Positions 57,646 to 64,000 of a stretch of 64,000 nt of DNA are shown here, piece after piece. Source of the stretch: Lutibacter oceani (GTDB taxonomy: Bacteria; Bacteroidota; Bacteroidia; Flavobacteriales; Flavobacteriaceae); assembly GCF_003384935.1 (NCBI RefSeq), contig NZ_QTTQ01000010.1:744001-808000 (forward strand). Reading direction: 5' to 3'. Position 1 is the first letter of the stretch. Each line of letters starts with the position of its first letter. The position numbers were made by a program, and so were the translations under genes. The notes beneath the pieces are model-generated. The model had not been told where the DNA came from, did no database searches, and worked only from the letters and a program-made list of their open reading frames with translations.

Positions 57646-58737
57646 ATGAAAAATTTAAAATTAATAGGATTCTTGATGATTTTGGCATCAAGTTTAATGT
57701 TTATTCAATGTACTAGCGACCCTATTGCAGGACCACAAGGTTTAGCAGGTGCCGATGGTATAGATGGTATTGACGGCGTTAACGGTGTTGATGGTGTTGA
57801 TGGTGTTGATAGTACTGCTTCATGTGTTGCTTGCCACTCTGATAGCCACAGAGATCCGATTGAAGCATCATATAAATTATCTCTTCACGCAATGGATCCT
57901 TTACATACAGACCGTGGTACTGGAGACCAAATTAACACATCAGATTACACTAATAGACAATCATGTGCACAATGTCATACAAGTGAAGGCTATATAGATT
58001 ATGTTAGTGGTTTCCCAATTGCTTCAGGTGATGGATATCCTGATGATTTAGCTTATGCTTATGGTAAGCAAACAATTTCTTGTAATACTTGTCATAATAG
58101 TCATAGTTCATTTGACTTCGATACTGATGGTCAAGATTTTGCTTTAAGAAATTTTGATCCAGTTACCTTAATTATTGATGGTGTTACAACTATTGATATG
58201 GGAACAAGTAACAATTGTGCTACTTGTCATCAACCAAGACAAGTTGATTTTCCAGCAGGTATAGAGGATGTTACAATTACAAGTTCTAGATATGGACCTC
58301 ACCATGGACCACAATCTACAGTTGTAGAAGGTATTTTTGGTGCAAATATAGCAGGTTCAGTAGGTTACCCAGGTGTTGGAACATCTACACATAGAACTGG
58401 CGCTTCTTGTGTAAGTTGTCATATGGGTGAAACAACTGACGGAACAGATGGTTTACACTCTTGGCATCCAACAGAAAACACTTGTCTTAATTGCCATGTG
58501 AATGGAGCTCCAACAGAAGTTAGTGGATATGCTGAAGATTTCCAAACATTACATGATTTATTAGTTGCAGCAGGTTCTTTAACCGAAAGTGGTAGCACTG
58601 TACCTGGTACTTTTTCTGCAGCAGTTGGACAAGCAACTTGGAATTACAAAACATTAGAAGAAGATAAAAGTAATGGTATACATAACCCTGGCTATGCTAA
58701 AGCATTACTTAAAAATTCAATTGAAGCATTACAATAA
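57646..58737 (+). CDS. Hexaheme c-type cytochrome lipoprotein with collagen-like stalk
   Basis: The 363-residue protein has a lipoprotein-type signal with Cys22 (LMFIQC), then nine Gly-X-Y triplets (residues 29-55, GIDGVNGVDG-like), then six CXXCH heme sites at 60-64, 107-111, 146-150, 191-195, 255-259 and 280-284, with extra His residues that could be distal ligands. I know no named family with this build. The collagen-like part would hold the heme domain off the membrane, possibly on the cell surface. It heads an operon with a monoheme lipoprotein and a beta-barrel and is controlled by an FNR-like site. Confidence 0.87.
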   Translation: MKNLKLIGFLMILASSLMFIQCTSDPIAGPQGLAGADGIDGIDGVNGVDGVDGVDSTASCVACHSDSHRDPIEASYKLSLHAMDPLHTDRGTGDQINTSDYTNRQSCAQCHTSEGYIDYVSGFPIASGDGYPDDLAYAYGKQTISCNTCHNSHSSFDFDTDGQDFALRNFDPVTLIIDGVTTIDMGTSNNCATCHQPRQVDFPAGIEDVTITSSRYGPHHGPQSTVVEGIFGANIAGSVGYPGVGTSTHRTGASCVSCHMGETTDGTDGLHSWHPTENTCLNCHVNGAPTEVSGYAEDFQTLHDLLVAAGSLTESGSTVPGTFSAAVGQATWNYKTLEEDKSNGIHNPGYAKALLKNSIEALQ

Positions 58738-58756
58738 TTGTTAGATATTTTTTTAG

Positions 58757-58785
58757 AGTTCAGGAGTATATTTTATTCCTGAACT
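58757..58785 (+). terminator. Hairpin after the hexaheme cytochrome
   Basis: AGTTCAGGA (58757-58765) and TCCTGAACT (58777-58785) form a perfect 9-bp stem 20 bases after the stop codon. Only a short T-run follows, so it is probably a leaky terminator or an mRNA-stabilising hairpin that lets the next two genes be expressed at a lower level. Confidence 0.55.
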
Positions 58786-58883
58786 TTATAAAACTAACGC
58801 TGAATTGTGTGTTTAGATTAACTTAAAATTTCATTTTTAGAAATTTAAAAAGTAGAAGTTAATTAACATTAAAAATCAAACAA

Positions 58884-59279
58884 ATGAAAAAACTATTGCA
58901 AATAGTTCTAATTAGCAGCTTAAGTTTATTGTGCTTCTCTTGTTATTATGATGAAATTCCTGAAGGATTAGATACCGTTATAACTGATGATGATGTACCT
59001 GAAATACCAGACACTCAAGTAGTTTCATTTAGTACTGAAATTCAACCAATATTAAATCAATGTACAGGGTGCCATGCAGCTAATATTAATCCAGATTTAA
59101 GAGAAGGAAATTCTTACAATGCACTTGTTCCAACATATGTTACAGCAGATGATGCAGATAACAGTAGATTTTACAAATATTTACCTGGAAAAGGGCATCA
59201 TGATGTAGGAATAACGTTAAGCGTAGATGAAATTGCATTAATAAAAGCTTGGATAAACCAAGGTGCTAAGGACAACTAA
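58884..59279 (+). CDS. Monoheme cytochrome c lipoprotein
   Basis: The 131-residue protein has a lipoprotein signal with Cys20 (LLCFSCYYDE), an acidic linker (TDDDVPEIPD) and one heme motif CTGCH at 60-64 inside FSTEIQPILNQCTGCHA, the pattern of planctomycete-type cytochrome c domains. The C-terminal helix LSVDEIALIKAWINQGA is typical of a small cytochrome c. The acidic residues after the lipidated Cys resemble Bacteroidota surface-export signals. It lies between the hexaheme and barrel genes and probably relays electrons between them. Confidence 0.83.
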   Translation: MKKLLQIVLISSLSLLCFSCYYDEIPEGLDTVITDDDVPEIPDTQVVSFSTEIQPILNQCTGCHAANINPDLREGNSYNALVPTYVTADDADNSRFYKYLPGKGHHDVGITLSVDEIALIKAWINQGAKDN

Positions 59280-59296
59280 TATATAAGACATTAAAC

Positions 59297-60145
59297 ATGA
59301 AAAATTATAAAATTATACTTTTTGTTCTTTTTATTCTTCCTTTTGTAACATTTGCACAAGAAGATGAGAAAAAAGATGAAAAAGTAAAAGAAAAAGTTGA
59401 AAGACCTGCGTTTGAAAGTTCATTTATTGTTGATAATCCAACTAATGTTTTGTTTAGTAAAAATTCCTTAGAGGTAACTATGCAACACAGATTTGGTACT
59501 ATTAATGGTGGAACTAACGATATGGCTGGTTTTTGGGCGCCTTCTAATATTAGAATTGGGCTTACTTATGCGATCCATGAAAGATTAACAATTGGTTATG
59601 GAACAACTAAATTTAATCGTTTACAAGATTTTAACTGGAAAGTTGCTTTATTAAGACAAACACGCTCAGGTAGTATGCCATTTAGCGTATCTTATTATGG
59701 TAATTTTACAATAGATGCTAGATCTAAAGAAAATTTCAATATGATTCAAGATAGGTACTCTTATTTTAATCAATTAATTATTGCTAAAAGATTTAGTCCA
59801 AATGTATCTTTACAAATAGCACCAAGTGTATCTCATTATAATCTAGTAGATGGAGATACAATGAAAAATGATATGGTTGCTGTTTCTTTTGGAGGACGAT
59901 TTAAAGTAAGTCCACAAACATCTATTTTATTAGATTATAGTCAACCAATAACAAAATTTGAAAGTGATCCAAAACCAGGAGTTAGTATTGGTGCTGAGTT
60001 TGCAACTTCAGCCCACGCATTCCAAATTTTCTTAACAAATTACAATGGTTTGGTATCTCAGAAAAACTATATGTATAACCAAAACGATTTCTTTAATGGT
60101 GATTTCCTAATTGGATTTAACATTACAAGAATCTACAATTTTTAA
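59297..60145 (+). CDS. DUF5777-family outer-membrane beta-barrel
   Basis: The 282-residue protein has a signal peptide ending near FVTFA|QE, a charged linker (EKKDEKVKEKVERP) and alternating amphipathic strands ending in FNITRIYNF, consistent with a 12- to 14-strand outer-membrane barrel. NNPTNVLFSKNSLEVTMQHR-like sequence and FWAPSNIRIGLTYAI match DUF5777. It is cotranscribed with two c-type cytochromes, which suggests it houses or anchors them in the outer membrane, as porins do in porin-cytochrome complexes; that is inference. Confidence 0.83.
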   Translation: MKNYKIILFVLFILPFVTFAQEDEKKDEKVKEKVERPAFESSFIVDNPTNVLFSKNSLEVTMQHRFGTINGGTNDMAGFWAPSNIRIGLTYAIHERLTIGYGTTKFNRLQDFNWKVALLRQTRSGSMPFSVSYYGNFTIDARSKENFNMIQDRYSYFNQLIIAKRFSPNVSLQIAPSVSHYNLVDGDTMKNDMVAVSFGGRFKVSPQTSILLDYSQPITKFESDPKPGVSIGAEFATSAHAFQIFLTNYNGLVSQKNYMYNQNDFFNGDFLIGFNITRIYNF

Positions 60146-60160
60146 CTATTAAAATCCATT

Positions 60161-60228
60161 AAAACAGACTAAAAGTTTAAATAAATCACCCCAAAAGATT
60201 TTTCCAAACTTTGTTAGTCTGTTTTTTA
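60161..60228 (+). terminator. Terminator of the cytochrome-barrel operon
   Basis: AAAACAGACTAA (60161-60172) pairs perfectly with TTAGTCTGTTTT (60214-60225), extended by AAGTTT/AAACTT, and runs into T residues. The loop is unusually long (about 40 bases). It lies 15 bases after the barrel's stop codon and separates the two cytochrome operons. Confidence 0.8.
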
Positions 60229-60347
60229 ATGTTAAAAATATTTTTTGAATTACTTTATCAAACCTAAAAAAATCACTTAAGCTAAATTAAAGACTGATTT
60301 TTTCTGGGTTTTATTCGAAAAAAACTTATAGTATCTTTTAAAATCAC

Positions 60348-60390
60348 TGACATAAATCATAGTACAATAATTACTATGTAACTAACTTTA
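60348..60390 (+). promoter_or_regulatory. FNR/CRP-like operator and promoter of the Fe-S/NrfD operon
   Basis: TGACATAAATCA (60348-60359) is a dyad related to the TGACTTAAGTCA site at 57570. Its centre is 29.5 bases before TAACTTTA (60383-60390), a -7-like element, the same distance as in the first operon. The remaining sequence between the terminator and this site is AT-rich without visible structure. Confidence 0.6.
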
Positions 60391-60434
60391 CATAAGAAAA
60401 TTTAACATAATTTCTAGTATAGATTTTTAATATT

Positions 60435-61421
60435 ATGGAAAATAAAAAAACTGAAAAAGGAGGCACAAACAGACGTAATTTCTTGAAATTAGGATTAATG
60501 TCTAGTGTAACAGCTGTTGCAGGAGCATCACTAATATCAAACTTAGCAATTCAAGATGAAGAAGTAGCCGAATCTGGCGAAAAAATGAGGTTGTTAACCC
60601 CCGATGGAAAAATAGTTGAAGTAGATGCCTCTAATGTAAATAAATATCCTGAGGCACTAATAACTCCAGAAGAATCTAGAAAAGGAATACCTAATCGAAA
60701 ATTTGTAATGGTTATTGATTTGGCAAAATGTAAAAATGCCAGAAAATGTGTTGAAGGTTGTCAAAAAGCTCACAAACTAGATTATAATGAAGAGTTTATG
60801 AAAGTTCAGTTGATACAAGACAATCCTGAAGCTTCTCCATATTGGTTACCAAAACCTTGTTTTCATTGTGATGAACCACCTTGTGTAACTGTTTGCCCAA
60901 CCGGAGCAACATTTAAACGTGAAGATGGTATTGTATTAGTAGACAATGATCGTTGCATTGGTTGTAAATTCTGTATTACAAGTTGCCCATATTCTGCTCG
61001 TCAATTTAATTGGGGGCATAAAGAAAAATTTGATGATAAATCACAACCTTATTCTCCAGAAACAAGTGTTCCGGCAGCAGAAGGTACTGTTATGAAATGT
61101 GATTTTTGTCCAGATATGTTACGTCAAGGTAAATTACCACATTGTGCACAATCTTGCCCAATGGGTGTTATTTATTTTGGTGATAAAAATGAAGATATTG
61201 TAACAAATGGTGAAGAAACAGTTCGTTTCTCACAATTAATTAAAGACCGAGGTGGTTATCGCCATTTAGAACATTTAGGTACAAAACCTAATGTATATTA
61301 TTTACCAGCAGTAAACAGACAATTCCCATTAGAACGTGGATTTAATGTTGAAGAAGATATAATTGAACGCTATAAAGATGTACCATTTGTTCAAGATTTA
61401 AAAAAACAAGGTAAAATTTAA
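60435..61421 (+). CDS. Tat-exported 4Fe-4S dicluster-type electron-transfer protein (HmcB/NrfC-like)
   Basis: The 328-residue protein has a Tat signal (NRRNFLKLG at 12-20) and then four ferredoxin-type cysteine groups: Cys99/105/109, Cys142/145/150/154, Cys174/177/180/184 and Cys222/225/237/241. The first group lacks its second Cys (Ala102), so 15 instead of 16 ligands are present and one cluster may be 3Fe-4S. This is the electron-transfer subunit of CISM-type complexes such as NrfCD, PsrBC and HmcBC. The NrfD partner follows after 17 bases. It would act on the periplasmic face. Confidence 0.88.
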   Translation: MENKKTEKGGTNRRNFLKLGLMSSVTAVAGASLISNLAIQDEEVAESGEKMRLLTPDGKIVEVDASNVNKYPEALITPEESRKGIPNRKFVMVIDLAKCKNARKCVEGCQKAHKLDYNEEFMKVQLIQDNPEASPYWLPKPCFHCDEPPCVTVCPTGATFKREDGIVLVDNDRCIGCKFCITSCPYSARQFNWGHKEKFDDKSQPYSPETSVPAAEGTVMKCDFCPDMLRQGKLPHCAQSCPMGVIYFGDKNEDIVTNGEETVRFSQLIKDRGGYRHLEHLGTKPNVYYLPAVNRQFPLERGFNVEEDIIERYKDVPFVQDLKKQGKI

Positions 61422-61438
61422 TTTCAAAACTCTTAATT

Positions 61439-62782
61439 ATGAATATAGAAAATAGAAAAAGAGAATTGGCTAAAGAATTTTCTCCTATGTTAGAAAAAAC
61501 TACCAAAACTTCTAAAATTTGGATTGGATTTTTAATCGCTGTAATTTTAGTTGGAGTATATGCCTTTTTTGTTCAATTATTTAAAGGCCATATTGTTACT
61601 GGAATGAGAGACAATGTAGTATGGGGTATTTATATTATAAATTTTATATTTTTCGTATGCCTAAGCTATTCAGGAGCTTTTATTTCAGGTATTCTACACT
61701 TTTTTAAAACACCTTGGAAAAATTCAGTTTCAAGAATTGTTGAAATAATTACGGTCTTGTCTTTAATTATAGGACCTATATTTATTTTATTGTGTATTGG
61801 ACGATTAGATAGACTTCATTATTTATTTATTTACCCAAGAATTCAATCTCCAATTACTTGGGATATTATAGCTATTATGACCGATTTAATAGGTTGTTTC
61901 ATCTATTTATACCTAACATTTATTCCTGATTTTGCAATTTTACGTGACAATAGTGAAAACGCTTCAAAATGGAGACAAAAAGTTTATAAATTTTTAGCAA
62001 TTGGTTACCAAGATACAACAACACAAAGAGAAAAGCTTCATAAAATAACACGTACAATGTCAGCAATGGTTATTGCTTTGGCAATTGTTGCTTACTCTGT
62101 GCTTGCTTGGATTTTTAGCTTAACGCTACAACCAGGATGGAACAGTTCCATTTTTGCACCATATTTTATAATTGCGGGCTTATATTCTGGTATAGGGGTA
62201 ATAATAATTGCAATGTATCTTATTAGAAAATATTACCATTTAGAACATTATATCAGAAAAGTACATTTTATTGGAGCTGGAATCATTCTATTAGTAGTTT
62301 CATTATTATTTGGATATTTTACTTTTAGCGAATATTTTTCACGCTGGTTCAGTCATAAAATACATGATACCAATCTTTTAAATACATTATTTACAAGATA
62401 TTTTTGGGTGTTTATTTTCGCTAATTACATTGGTGTATTAGTTCCGATCGTAATCTTATTCTTTAAAAAATTTAGAACTATAAAATCTATCACCTTTGCA
62501 GCTATTGTTGCTGTTATTGGATTATGGTTTAACCGTTATTTAATAGTTGTTCCAACTTTAGAAACACCTTATTTACCAATTCAAGATACAAGAGAAGAAT
62601 TTGTTCATTATACTGCAACCTGGATTGAGTGGGCTTTAAGTTTTGCAGGGGTTGCAGCATTTATTTTATTCTTTATTTTAATTATGAAATTAGTGCCTGT
62701 TATTCCAATGTCAGGAATTATAGATAACGAACGTGAACAAAAAATGAGTAAAAAATCTTTTAAAAAAATTGTAACTGAGTAA
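61439..62782 (+). CDS. NrfD/PsrC-family quinol-interacting membrane protein
   Basis: The 447-residue integral membrane protein has about ten hydrophobic helices, with the NrfD-type features VTGMRDNVVWGIYI near residue 55, ISGILHFFKTPWK, and long helices with few charges. NrfD subunits oxidise or reduce menaquinol and hand electrons to a periplasmic Fe-S subunit, here the protein encoded directly upstream. It has neither heme nor Fe-S ligands itself. No molybdopterin catalytic subunit is encoded in the window. Confidence 0.9.
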   Translation: MNIENRKRELAKEFSPMLEKTTKTSKIWIGFLIAVILVGVYAFFVQLFKGHIVTGMRDNVVWGIYIINFIFFVCLSYSGAFISGILHFFKTPWKNSVSRIVEIITVLSLIIGPIFILLCIGRLDRLHYLFIYPRIQSPITWDIIAIMTDLIGCFIYLYLTFIPDFAILRDNSENASKWRQKVYKFLAIGYQDTTTQREKLHKITRTMSAMVIALAIVAYSVLAWIFSLTLQPGWNSSIFAPYFIIAGLYSGIGVIIIAMYLIRKYYHLEHYIRKVHFIGAGIILLVVSLLFGYFTFSEYFSRWFSHKIHDTNLLNTLFTRYFWVFIFANYIGVLVPIVILFFKKFRTIKSITFAAIVAVIGLWFNRYLIVVPTLETPYLPIQDTREEFVHYTATWIEWALSFAGVAAFILFFILIMKLVPVIPMSGIIDNEREQKMSKKSFKKIVTE

Positions 62783-62801
62783 TTTAATAAAGTTAGAAAT
62801 T

Positions 62802-63716
62802 ATGAAAAGTATAAACTACAAATACACCATTATTACTTCACTTCTTATTGCTTTTTTATTCAGTTTTAATGGCTTTTCACAAGAAGATGAAGCAACTGAT
62901 GCAAGCAGCTATAAAATGAGATTTAATTTTAAGACTGTTAAACAGTACGATAATTCTCGTTTGCTTGAGGTAAGTTTTATTGGGCAAAACAAAAAAGATA
63001 GAAAAGATAAAATTCCTGTTTTTGATGCAGTAATTAAATTTTATAATAATGATAATTTATTAGGAGAATCAAAAACTTCTGATGAAGGTATTGCTCAGTT
63101 TGCGGTTCCGGGAAATCAAATTTATATTACTGATGAAGATGGATACATTAATCTTACAGCTAAATTTGAAGGATCTGACGGTTTAGATGAAGAGGAGGAA
63201 GAAATTCAAGTAAAGGATTTATTCTTAGAATTAAATTTAGAAGAAATTGATAGTGTTAAAACTGTTTTAGTAAAAGCTTTTACGATAGATAGTTTAGGAG
63301 TTGAAATTCCTCTGGAAGAAGCTGATTTAATAATTTCTGTTGGTGGAATGATTTCCAAAATGAAATTAGAGGAAGGTACTATTGAAGACGGTGAATTTGA
63401 ATTTGAATTCCCTACAGATATACCTGGTGATGTAAATGGTGACATTCTGGTATATTCAATTATTACAGATAATGATGATTTTGGAAATGTAATTCAACAA
63501 AAAACTGTAAATTGGGGTAACATAAAAACTAAAATTGTAAAAGAAGATAATAAATTATGGTCTGAAGCAGCTCCAATATGGATGTATATTGTTTTAACAA
63601 TTTTATTGGTTGGGGTTTGGGCTAATTATTTATATACAGCTATAAATTTATTTAAAATTAAAAAAGAAGGGAAGGAAATTGAATTAAAAGAAACAGAATT
63701 AAACACAGAACATTAA
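62802..63716 (+). CDS. Periplasmic protein with C-terminal membrane anchor, unrecognised
   Basis: The 304-residue protein has a signal peptide ending near FNGFS|QE, about 220 residues of beta-rich, strongly acidic sequence (two Ig-like or transthyretin-like domains are plausible: PVFDAVIKFYNNDNLLGES with SDEGIAQFAVPG) and one C-terminal helix (WMYIVLTILLVGVWANYLYTA) with a short basic cytosolic tail. I do not recognise a family. Its place between NrfD and a c-type cytochrome suggests a structural or docking part of the same complex. It has no heme or metal motif. Confidence 0.75.
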   Translation: MKSINYKYTIITSLLIAFLFSFNGFSQEDEATDASSYKMRFNFKTVKQYDNSRLLEVSFIGQNKKDRKDKIPVFDAVIKFYNNDNLLGESKTSDEGIAQFAVPGNQIYITDEDGYINLTAKFEGSDGLDEEEEEIQVKDLFLELNLEEIDSVKTVLVKAFTIDSLGVEIPLEEADLIISVGGMISKMKLEEGTIEDGEFEFEFPTDIPGDVNGDILVYSIITDNDDFGNVIQQKTVNWGNIKTKIVKEDNKLWSEAAPIWMYIVLTILLVGVWANYLYTAINLFKIKKEGKEIELKETELNTEH

Positions 63717-63740
63717 ACAAATTAAAATTATCAAATTAAT

Positions 63741-63748
63741 TACTTTTG
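63741..63748 (+). promoter_or_regulatory. Candidate internal -7 element
   Basis: TACTTTTG matches TAnnTTTG and lies 48 bases before the cytochrome ATG. A short GGTATC/GATATT hairpin follows. It may give the cytochrome gene a promoter of its own besides the operon promoter. Confidence 0.4.
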
Positions 63749-63796
63749 TGGTATCTTTTTTGATATTATTATTATAACAAACAAAAAAAACTAAAA

Positions 63797-64000
63797 ATGA
63801 AAACACTTAAAACATTAATGATTATTGGGATTATAACTATAGGCCTTTTTGCATTTAAATCTATTGATCAAGATGAATGGAAAGTACCAGCTAAATATGA
63901 AAAAATGACAAACCCAGAAGAAGCTAGTAAAGAAAATGTAGCTATTGGAAAATCTATGTATTCTAAACATTGTAAATCTTGTCATGGTAGTAAAGGTTAT
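63797..64000 (+). CDS. c-type cytochrome (3' end outside the window)
   Basis: Only 68 residues are visible. They comprise a hydrophobic signal segment (TLMIIGIITIGLFAFKS), the stretch WKVPAKYEKMTNPEEASK, and GKSMYSKHCKSCHGSKGY with the heme motif CKSCH at residues 59-63. This is the start of a class I cytochrome c domain. It is the fourth gene of the Fe-S/NrfD operon and a natural periplasmic acceptor for that module. The operon continues past the window, so a catalytic subunit may follow. Confidence 0.85.
   Translation, partial: MKTLKTLMIIGIITIGLFAFKSIDQDEWKVPAKYEKMTNPEEASKENVAIGKSMYSKHCKSCHGSKGY

Follow-up and report, generated by a model that had tools for sequence, protein, structure and literature searches.

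What does a hexaheme lipoprotein do beside an outer-membrane barrel and a quinol module in a flavobacterium? The question is raised by a locus of Lutibacter oceani at the end of the window, by which we mean the whole 64,000-nucleotide stretch analysed here (C2:744001-808000 within a 3.38-Mb genome). The first-pass annotation had placed at positions 57646-64000 the genes of a hexaheme lipoprotein (P1), a monoheme lipoprotein (P2), a DUF5777 barrel (P3), a twin-arginine translocation (Tat)-exported iron-sulfur (Fe-S) protein (P4), an NrfD-type protein (P5), an anchored protein (P6), and a c-type cytochrome (P7), and all seven were recovered there by the open reading frame (ORF) list together with Pfam. 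Most descriptions of extracellular respiration concern Shewanella, Geobacter, and certain Gram-positives, and marine flavobacteria are better known for aerobic polymer breakdown. We give an even chance to the answer argued for below, namely that the unit would draw on menaquinol and form a branch supplying haem proteins of the outer membrane with electrons, its terminal protein being exchangeable.

Conservation of the unit and exchange of its front protein

When named genomes were scanned with the P6 alignment, 43 loci were obtained (module P4-P7 present in each by construction), whose titles read Flavobacteriaceae, Flavobacteriia, Flavobacteriales, or Bacteroidetes, with a single Labilibaculum in addition. 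P1 to P7 stood in the same order on one strand in 28 of the 43, some with a second module in between; 12 loci ended at a contig edge before the place of P1, leaving 31 informative loci, 28 of which held P1-P7 and the other three (L034, L048, and L066) an EB_dh gene (PF09459) before P2. Chance was excluded, because the order was kept in 28/31 loci uncut upstream. In an independent test, P1 and the module were searched separately in a 149-genome family sample: 10 genomes carried P1 (after removal of weak matches) and 12 carried the module, all 10 lying within the 12, and EB_dh occupied the place of P1 (L083 and L084) in the module-only genomes G062 and G082. Co-occurrence of the two gene groups in relatives, named earlier as a check, was seen in both searches. 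They had been described as two adjacent operons; the genes are adjacent, but relatives displayed them as one unit of constant order. A second Fe-S/NrfD/anchor module lay after P7 in L. oceani, where P8 (Fe-S), P9 (NrfD), and P10 (anchor; 25% identity to P6) followed the end of P7 past the window (L006), and likewise in L031; it was found between P3 and P4 elsewhere (e.g., L047 and L054) and was solitary in some genomes (e.g., L079).

Two wider samples of 296 genomes each gave (i) seven module carriers at phylum level, namely L. oceani, G125, and five genomes of other Bacteroidota families (L155-L159), in all five of which P2-P3 adjoined FeS-NrfD-P6-P7, and (ii) six carriers at order level, one spurious and two new (L160 and L161, with P1 in front). 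The P2 of L158, missed by BLAST, was assigned by its place and CX4CH motif. In the other families the front protein was EB_dh in L156 and L157, and L158 had a lipoprotein with a YceI domain at this place; ahead of the core in L155 and L159 we saw no haem lipoprotein. P1 and EB_dh occurred together in L077 and L086, and L080 had EB_dh-P2-P3 beside P1-P2-P3. Pfam confirmed EB_dh in L034, L048, L066, L083, L080, L156, and L157 and YceI in L158; the L. oceani genome had no EB_dh. The constant core is therefore P2-P3 plus the quinol module and P7, with an exchangeable front protein, and P1 is such an exchangeable end piece because units without it exist.

The locus could also join two neighbours of separate function, P4-P7 acting as a pared-down quinol:cytochrome c oxidoreductase and P1-P3 forming an outer-membrane group with no relation to it, as DUF5777 is found in other places next to YceI but lacking NrfD, the second copy of L. 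oceani included, and YceI lay near 25/31 DUF5777 loci (the best-scoring matches plus the two of L. oceani, mostly of YceI type). However, P2-P3 stood beside the module in every fetched module locus not cut there, with the order kept across families, and we regard such a separation of functions as highly improbable.

Quinol module, P2-P3 pair, and hexaheme

P4 contained Fer4 domains (Pfam) and a twin-arginine motif, and its best solved relatives were 2vpw chain B (4e-27), which we take to be PsrB, and ActB (1e-20). Fifteen Cys were kept in 17/17 aligned P4/P8-type proteins; since this is one short of four full motifs, one cluster of P4 may be [3Fe-4S]. P5 belonged to NrfD by Pfam (1.4e-33), and its nearest solved relatives were ActC subunits of alternative complex III (3.7e-50 to 6f0k chain C), so that the NrfD-type quinol module recognized earlier was borne out by the PsrB/ActB and ActC kinship of P4-P5. 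Four quinone or gate residues are named for ActC, His139, Asp169, Asp253, and the gate Arg395 (PMC8076601): in a correspondence read by hand from the alignment, Asp169 and Arg395 were P5 D142 and R366 (kept in 20/20 P5-type proteins), His139 was Cys119 (20/20), and Asp253 was I225 (Ile), and four aligned P9-like proteins had Asp at the His139 place. Family membership makes menaquinol oxidation by the module likely. P6, which like P2 matched no Pfam family at E 0.1, was fused to NrfD in G103 and G106 (L078 and L080), which points to a subunit role for P6 within the quinol module. P7 was a cytochrome c by Pfam. Relatives of P7 of about 240 amino acids (aa) were seen at L059:11586-12314 and, similarly, in L048, L053, L055, and L161; that of L059 combined a lipobox with a long linker rich in Lys/Thr/Val/Glu and a cytochrome c at the C-terminal end, and is perhaps a tethered carrier.

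Flow might also run inward, with an external donor, e.g., Fe(II) or another cell, reducing menaquinone via P1/P2. The ActC relatives of P5 come from a quinol-oxidizing complex, and for Fe(II) at neutral pH menaquinone is an acceptor of low potential, both of which speak against this reading. On the other hand, FeS/NrfD modules work either way, as in the Qrc complex, which is reported to reduce menaquinone, and cytochrome-porins serve Fe(II) oxidation (PMC8406198). We judge inward flow very unlikely.

P3 was a DUF5777 protein by Pfam (6.6e-78), and its model (12 strands; predicted local distance difference test, pLDDT, 88) matched small barrels in general, e.g., FapF, OmpG, and NanC. Its neighbour P2 varied with the front protein: the putative distal haem ligand, read by pattern in 48 P2 proteins, was His in 32/35 P1-only units and Met in 6/8 EB_dh-only units (Fisher 3e-4, relatedness ignored), the three units with neither P1 nor EB_dh had two Met and one residue that was neither His nor Met, the two units with both were split, and the L080 genome had P2 of both ligand kinds. 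The pattern suggests that the redox potential of P2 is matched to its partner. P2 homologues of L156, L157, and L158 displayed CX4CH (CALSGCH) instead of CXXCH. DUF5777 occurred in 115/296 sampled phylum genomes, its name was not found in the open-access full texts searched (most subscription papers and preprints lay outside the search), and a monoheme lipoprotein lay near at least 11 of the 31 DUF5777 loci under a strict lipobox pattern that missed P2 itself. The second DUF5777 of L. oceani (L021, C1:404000-420000; 411789-413641, minus strand) stood with YceI and a monoheme lipoprotein, and no NrfD was found near it.

P2-P3 is a constant pair, found also without P1, which would fit a Cyc2-like pore chemistry: P3 would admit a small redox-active ion or molecule, the reaction with P2 would take place at the periplasmic mouth, and P1 would be optional. 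Cyc2 offers the precedent of a barrel, predicted to have 16 strands, whose periplasmic mouth a monoheme domain is proposed to plug (PMC8406198), and single-CXXCH proteins of L128, L129, and L136 (see below) have a 370-aa C-terminal part that is maybe a barrel. However, P2 and P3 are separate genes without demonstrated sequence kinship to Cyc2, those fused proteins are only putative barrels, and the usual flavobacterial partner is a hexaheme; pore chemistry of this kind seems to us distinctly improbable.

P1 had six CXXCH motifs and a conserved lipobox cysteine, matched the MtrC/MtrF-like domain II/IV of Pfam (PF22113; 45.7 versus a cut-off of 30 bits), and gave a predicted structure whose best match in whole-model comparison was OcwA, the surface reductase of Thermincola. 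Its profile matches to nitrite reductases and OcwA ranged from 2e-11 to 3e-12, and these structure and profile matches place it in the NrfA/OcwA fold class, which is marked by an NrfA-type fold with C-terminal helices and matching haem motifs. The P1 alignment (38 rows, 37 distinct) had H219 in 38/38 rows, His (31/38) or Tyr (6/38) at position 220, and six further conserved His beyond the haem motifs. Chain order suggests for H219, in a model that holds no haems, the place of the OcwA His pair over the open haem; P1 as a pure wire of six bis-His haems was weakened by this comparison. The VIA-align comparison, with no MtrC-type chain among the P1 matches listed, was uninformative.

P1-like proteins without this module were found as distant matches in 46/296 phylum genomes (E 1e-10), many in longer proteins. 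Sixteen such regions were fetched from 15 genomes and 11 were annotated, and P4-P7 did not appear in any of the 11 under the thresholds applied: (i) L128, L129, and L136 had hexahemes beside 408-431-aa proteins, possibly fusions of a cytochrome and a barrel, in which a single CXXCH lies close to the N-terminus and the C-terminus is aromatic, plus Rieske-domain or Rieske-like Tat proteins nearby (Pfam for L128 only); (ii) L131, L132, L135, and L138 had P1-like proteins beside 14-haem cytochromes and 423-458-aa CXXCH-free possible barrels; (iii) L133 and L134 had a 12-haem cytochrome instead of the 14-haem one; and (iv) in L130 and L137 no redox partner was seen. A strand-amphipathicity count was discarded as proof of a barrel for the proteins under (i), a soluble E2 enzyme having scored equally high.

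Proposed electron path and comparison with known systems

In the proposed path, for which we infer an outward direction, P5 (NrfD), the periplasmic Fe-S protein P4, and P6 would oxidize menaquinol and pass electrons to P7; this periplasmic cytochrome c would reduce P2, whose partner at the outer membrane would be P3, the barrel of 12 predicted strands; from P2 electrons would reach the terminal lipoprotein, an exchangeable part that in this locus is the OcwA-like hexaheme P1; and P1 would reduce an acceptor located on the cell surface or beyond it, candidates being a solid metal oxide, a shuttle, or another cell.

Several points weigh against this path, which was derived by computation. The conduit idea is weakest where electrons would have to cross the outer membrane, the modelled P3 appearing too small for a multiheme: the MtrCAB barrel has 26 strands (PMC8406198), and with 12 strands in P3 an MtrCAB-like multiheme inserted in the barrel is therefore unlikely. 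The first-pass annotation had spoken of a barrel-plus-multiheme conduit and of a complete path from quinone pool to surface; the former was upheld insofar as the P1 model best matches a surface reductase, but the 12-strand barrel does not account for the crossing, and the latter was not supported, in view of the barrel size, the units without P1, and a surface exposure of P1 that is only putative. Three core units had neither P1 nor EB_dh in front, P1 being not essential to the core; two of the four named ActC residues (His139 and Asp253) were not kept in P5; the P1 model was of middling confidence (pLDDT 76.7); and P1 starts C-T-S-D, which agrees in part with SDDFE, the lipoprotein export consensus of F. 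johnsoniae (PMC5080379).

P1 may, moreover, be a reductase of soluble compounds. It would then be an Nrf-like terminal enzyme acting on nitrite, hydroxylamine, or a similar compound, fed by P4-P7, with the barrel admitting the substrate. Its fold class includes NrfA, its whole-length profile placed octaheme nitrite reductase (2.2e-11) ahead of OcwA (6.9e-10), its homologue in L161 exceeded the cut-off of the Pfam NrfA family (Cytochrom_C552), the invariant H219 aligns by chain order with the His pair over the open haem of OcwA, and slow reduction of nitrite and hydroxylamine is reported for OcwA itself. However, CXXCK, the motif of the NrfA catalytic haem, was found in 0/38 aligned P1 rows, and the haem-b-type EB_dh, from which the same chemistry is not expected, replaces P1 in some units. 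The L. oceani genome also has elsewhere what we take to be an NrfAH pair. A soluble reductase is unlikely in our estimate, though it keeps a real chance.

The menaquinol-linked branch to outer-membrane haem proteins was also compared with known systems: (i) MtrCAB and other porin-cytochrome systems likewise combine haem proteins with an outer-membrane barrel and draw on the quinone pool, and P1 matches PF22113 over the cut-off (its best whole-model match being OcwA nevertheless), while the unit has a 12-strand DUF5777 barrel instead of 26 strands, NrfD/FeS instead of CymA, and no MtrA-like decaheme among its ORFs, and MtrB_PioB (PF11854) had no match in the L. oceani genome (14 control genomes gave no over-cut-off positive either); (ii) Cyc2 likewise has one c-type haem and a small outer-membrane barrel, while here P2 and P3 are separate genes, the strands number 12 and not 16, the cytochrome is a lipoprotein, and an extra haem lipoprotein is usually present; (iii) alternative complex III (ActABCDEF) has counterparts in the ActC-like P5 and ActB-like P4, while the unit and its flanks are without the ActA pentaheme, the molybdenum-like domain of ActB, ActD, and ActE-F, and what looks like a full locus of that complex lies elsewhere in the genome; (iv) SirCD of Shewanella and CbcSTU of Geobacter likewise have an FeS/NrfD pair that feeds cytochromes without a catalytic subunit of its own, and P4-P5, an adjacent periplasmic FeS protein and NrfD protein with no molybdenum enzyme, fit the SirCD/CbcTU type, while here P6, P7, P2-P3, and P1 share the one locus; and (v) OcwA of Thermincola potens (6i5b) and the S-layer undecaheme cytochrome of Carboxydothermus (6qvm) have nine and 11 haems versus six in P1, which differs as a Gram-negative lipoprotein accompanied by a barrel and a quinol module. 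SirCD and CbcSTU are able to feed metal respiration (PMC11434368). The unit belongs to none of MtrCAB, Cyc2, and alternative complex III, and the earlier statement that no system of this composition had been described agrees with the open-access full texts searched, in which no description of the gene set was found, nor was any found in the available parts of PMC11475568, PMC7399161, and PMC8446621.

More tentatively, and leaning somewhat against it, we consider that the unit may represent an independent trans-outer-membrane respiratory system of marine flavobacteria and scattered other Bacteroidota, built of a monoheme lipoprotein, a 12-strand DUF5777 barrel, and an ActC-like quinol module, with plug-in ends (OcwA-like hexaheme, haem-b EB_dh lipoprotein, or YceI lipoprotein) that would set the outside redox partner. 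If true, flavobacterial cell-surface respiration in sediments and on particles would have been missed by marker searches using MtrB-type porins, an OcwA/NrfA-fold cytochrome would have been recruited to an outer membrane, and DUF5777 would gain a testable redox role; the exchangeable end protein and the matching change of the putative P2 ligand make the idea directly testable.

Feature coordinates and surrounding genes

Table 1. Features of the unit, in window positions
Feature	Position	Strand	Basis
P1 hexaheme lipoprotein, NrfA/OcwA fold class (predicted)	57646..58737	+	ORFs, Pfam, model, profiles
P2 monoheme c-type lipoprotein	58884..59279	+	ORF, haem motif, alignment
P3 DUF5777 outer-membrane barrel, 12 strands predicted	59297..60145	+	Pfam, model
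P4 Tat-exported Fe-S protein, PsrB/ActB/DsrO-like	60435..61421	+	Pfam, profiles, alignment
P5 NrfD-type quinol subunit, closest among solved structures to ActC of alternative complex III	61439..62782	+	Pfam, profiles
P6 exported protein, C-terminal hydrophobic segment; NrfD-fused in two relatives	62802..63716	+	ORF, alignments
P7 c-type cytochrome	63797..64000, end 195 bp beyond the window (L006:8195)	+	ORF, Pfam
TGTAA-N6-TTACA palindrome, 5' of P1	57449..57464		pattern position; weak alone
ATGA-N6-TCAT palindrome, 5' of P1	57569..57582		pattern enrichment in relatives
TGTAA-N6-TTACA palindrome, 5' of P4	60377..60392		single site, this genome

The palindrome ATGA-N6-TCAT, which presumably resembles Crp/Fnr boxes, was present in 22/28 P1 upstream regions versus 29/145 other upstream regions of the same loci, a contrast that is only indicative because the pattern was chosen on the same 28 sequences, which are related. 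TGTAA-N6-TTACA was present in 7/28 versus 18/145, and the TTGAT-N4-ATCAA box in 0/28 and 0/145.

The first-pass annotation had called for a look past 64 kb for a catalytic subunit: no molybdenum/tungsten oxidoreductase was found by inspection among the ORFs of the next 24 kb, and the nearest of three molybdopterin-family matches in the genome (C4:49 kb, C2:681 kb, and C1:676 kb; the unit at C2:802-812 kb) lay about 120 kb away. The opposite-strand genes after P10 are, to judge by their sequences, presumably for haem synthesis. The window contained no tRNA; its promoter scan (30 sites versus 40 expected from shuffles) was uninformative, and its terminator-like sites numbered six versus 2.5 expected, with none between P3 and P4 and none after P6.

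Further redox loci were seen elsewhere. In L. oceani, L022 (C2:368000-387000) held at 373164-379485 a pair of very large cytochromes (23 and 31 CXXCH motifs) next to what inspection suggests are genes for a membrane protein, a protein like ferredoxin, and cytochrome c biogenesis, and L008 (678866-684726) encoded a 12-haem cytochrome on the minus strand beside a molybdopterin enzyme, an Fe-S protein, and NrfD, followed by rhodanese-like proteins (all by inspection). A separate tetraheme-FeS-NrfD set lay near the unit at L082:16127-18541 and L087:10360-12769, and upstream of the unit at L159:23-2091 were repeated peptide-like ORFs resembling arrays of clustered regularly interspaced short palindromic repeats.

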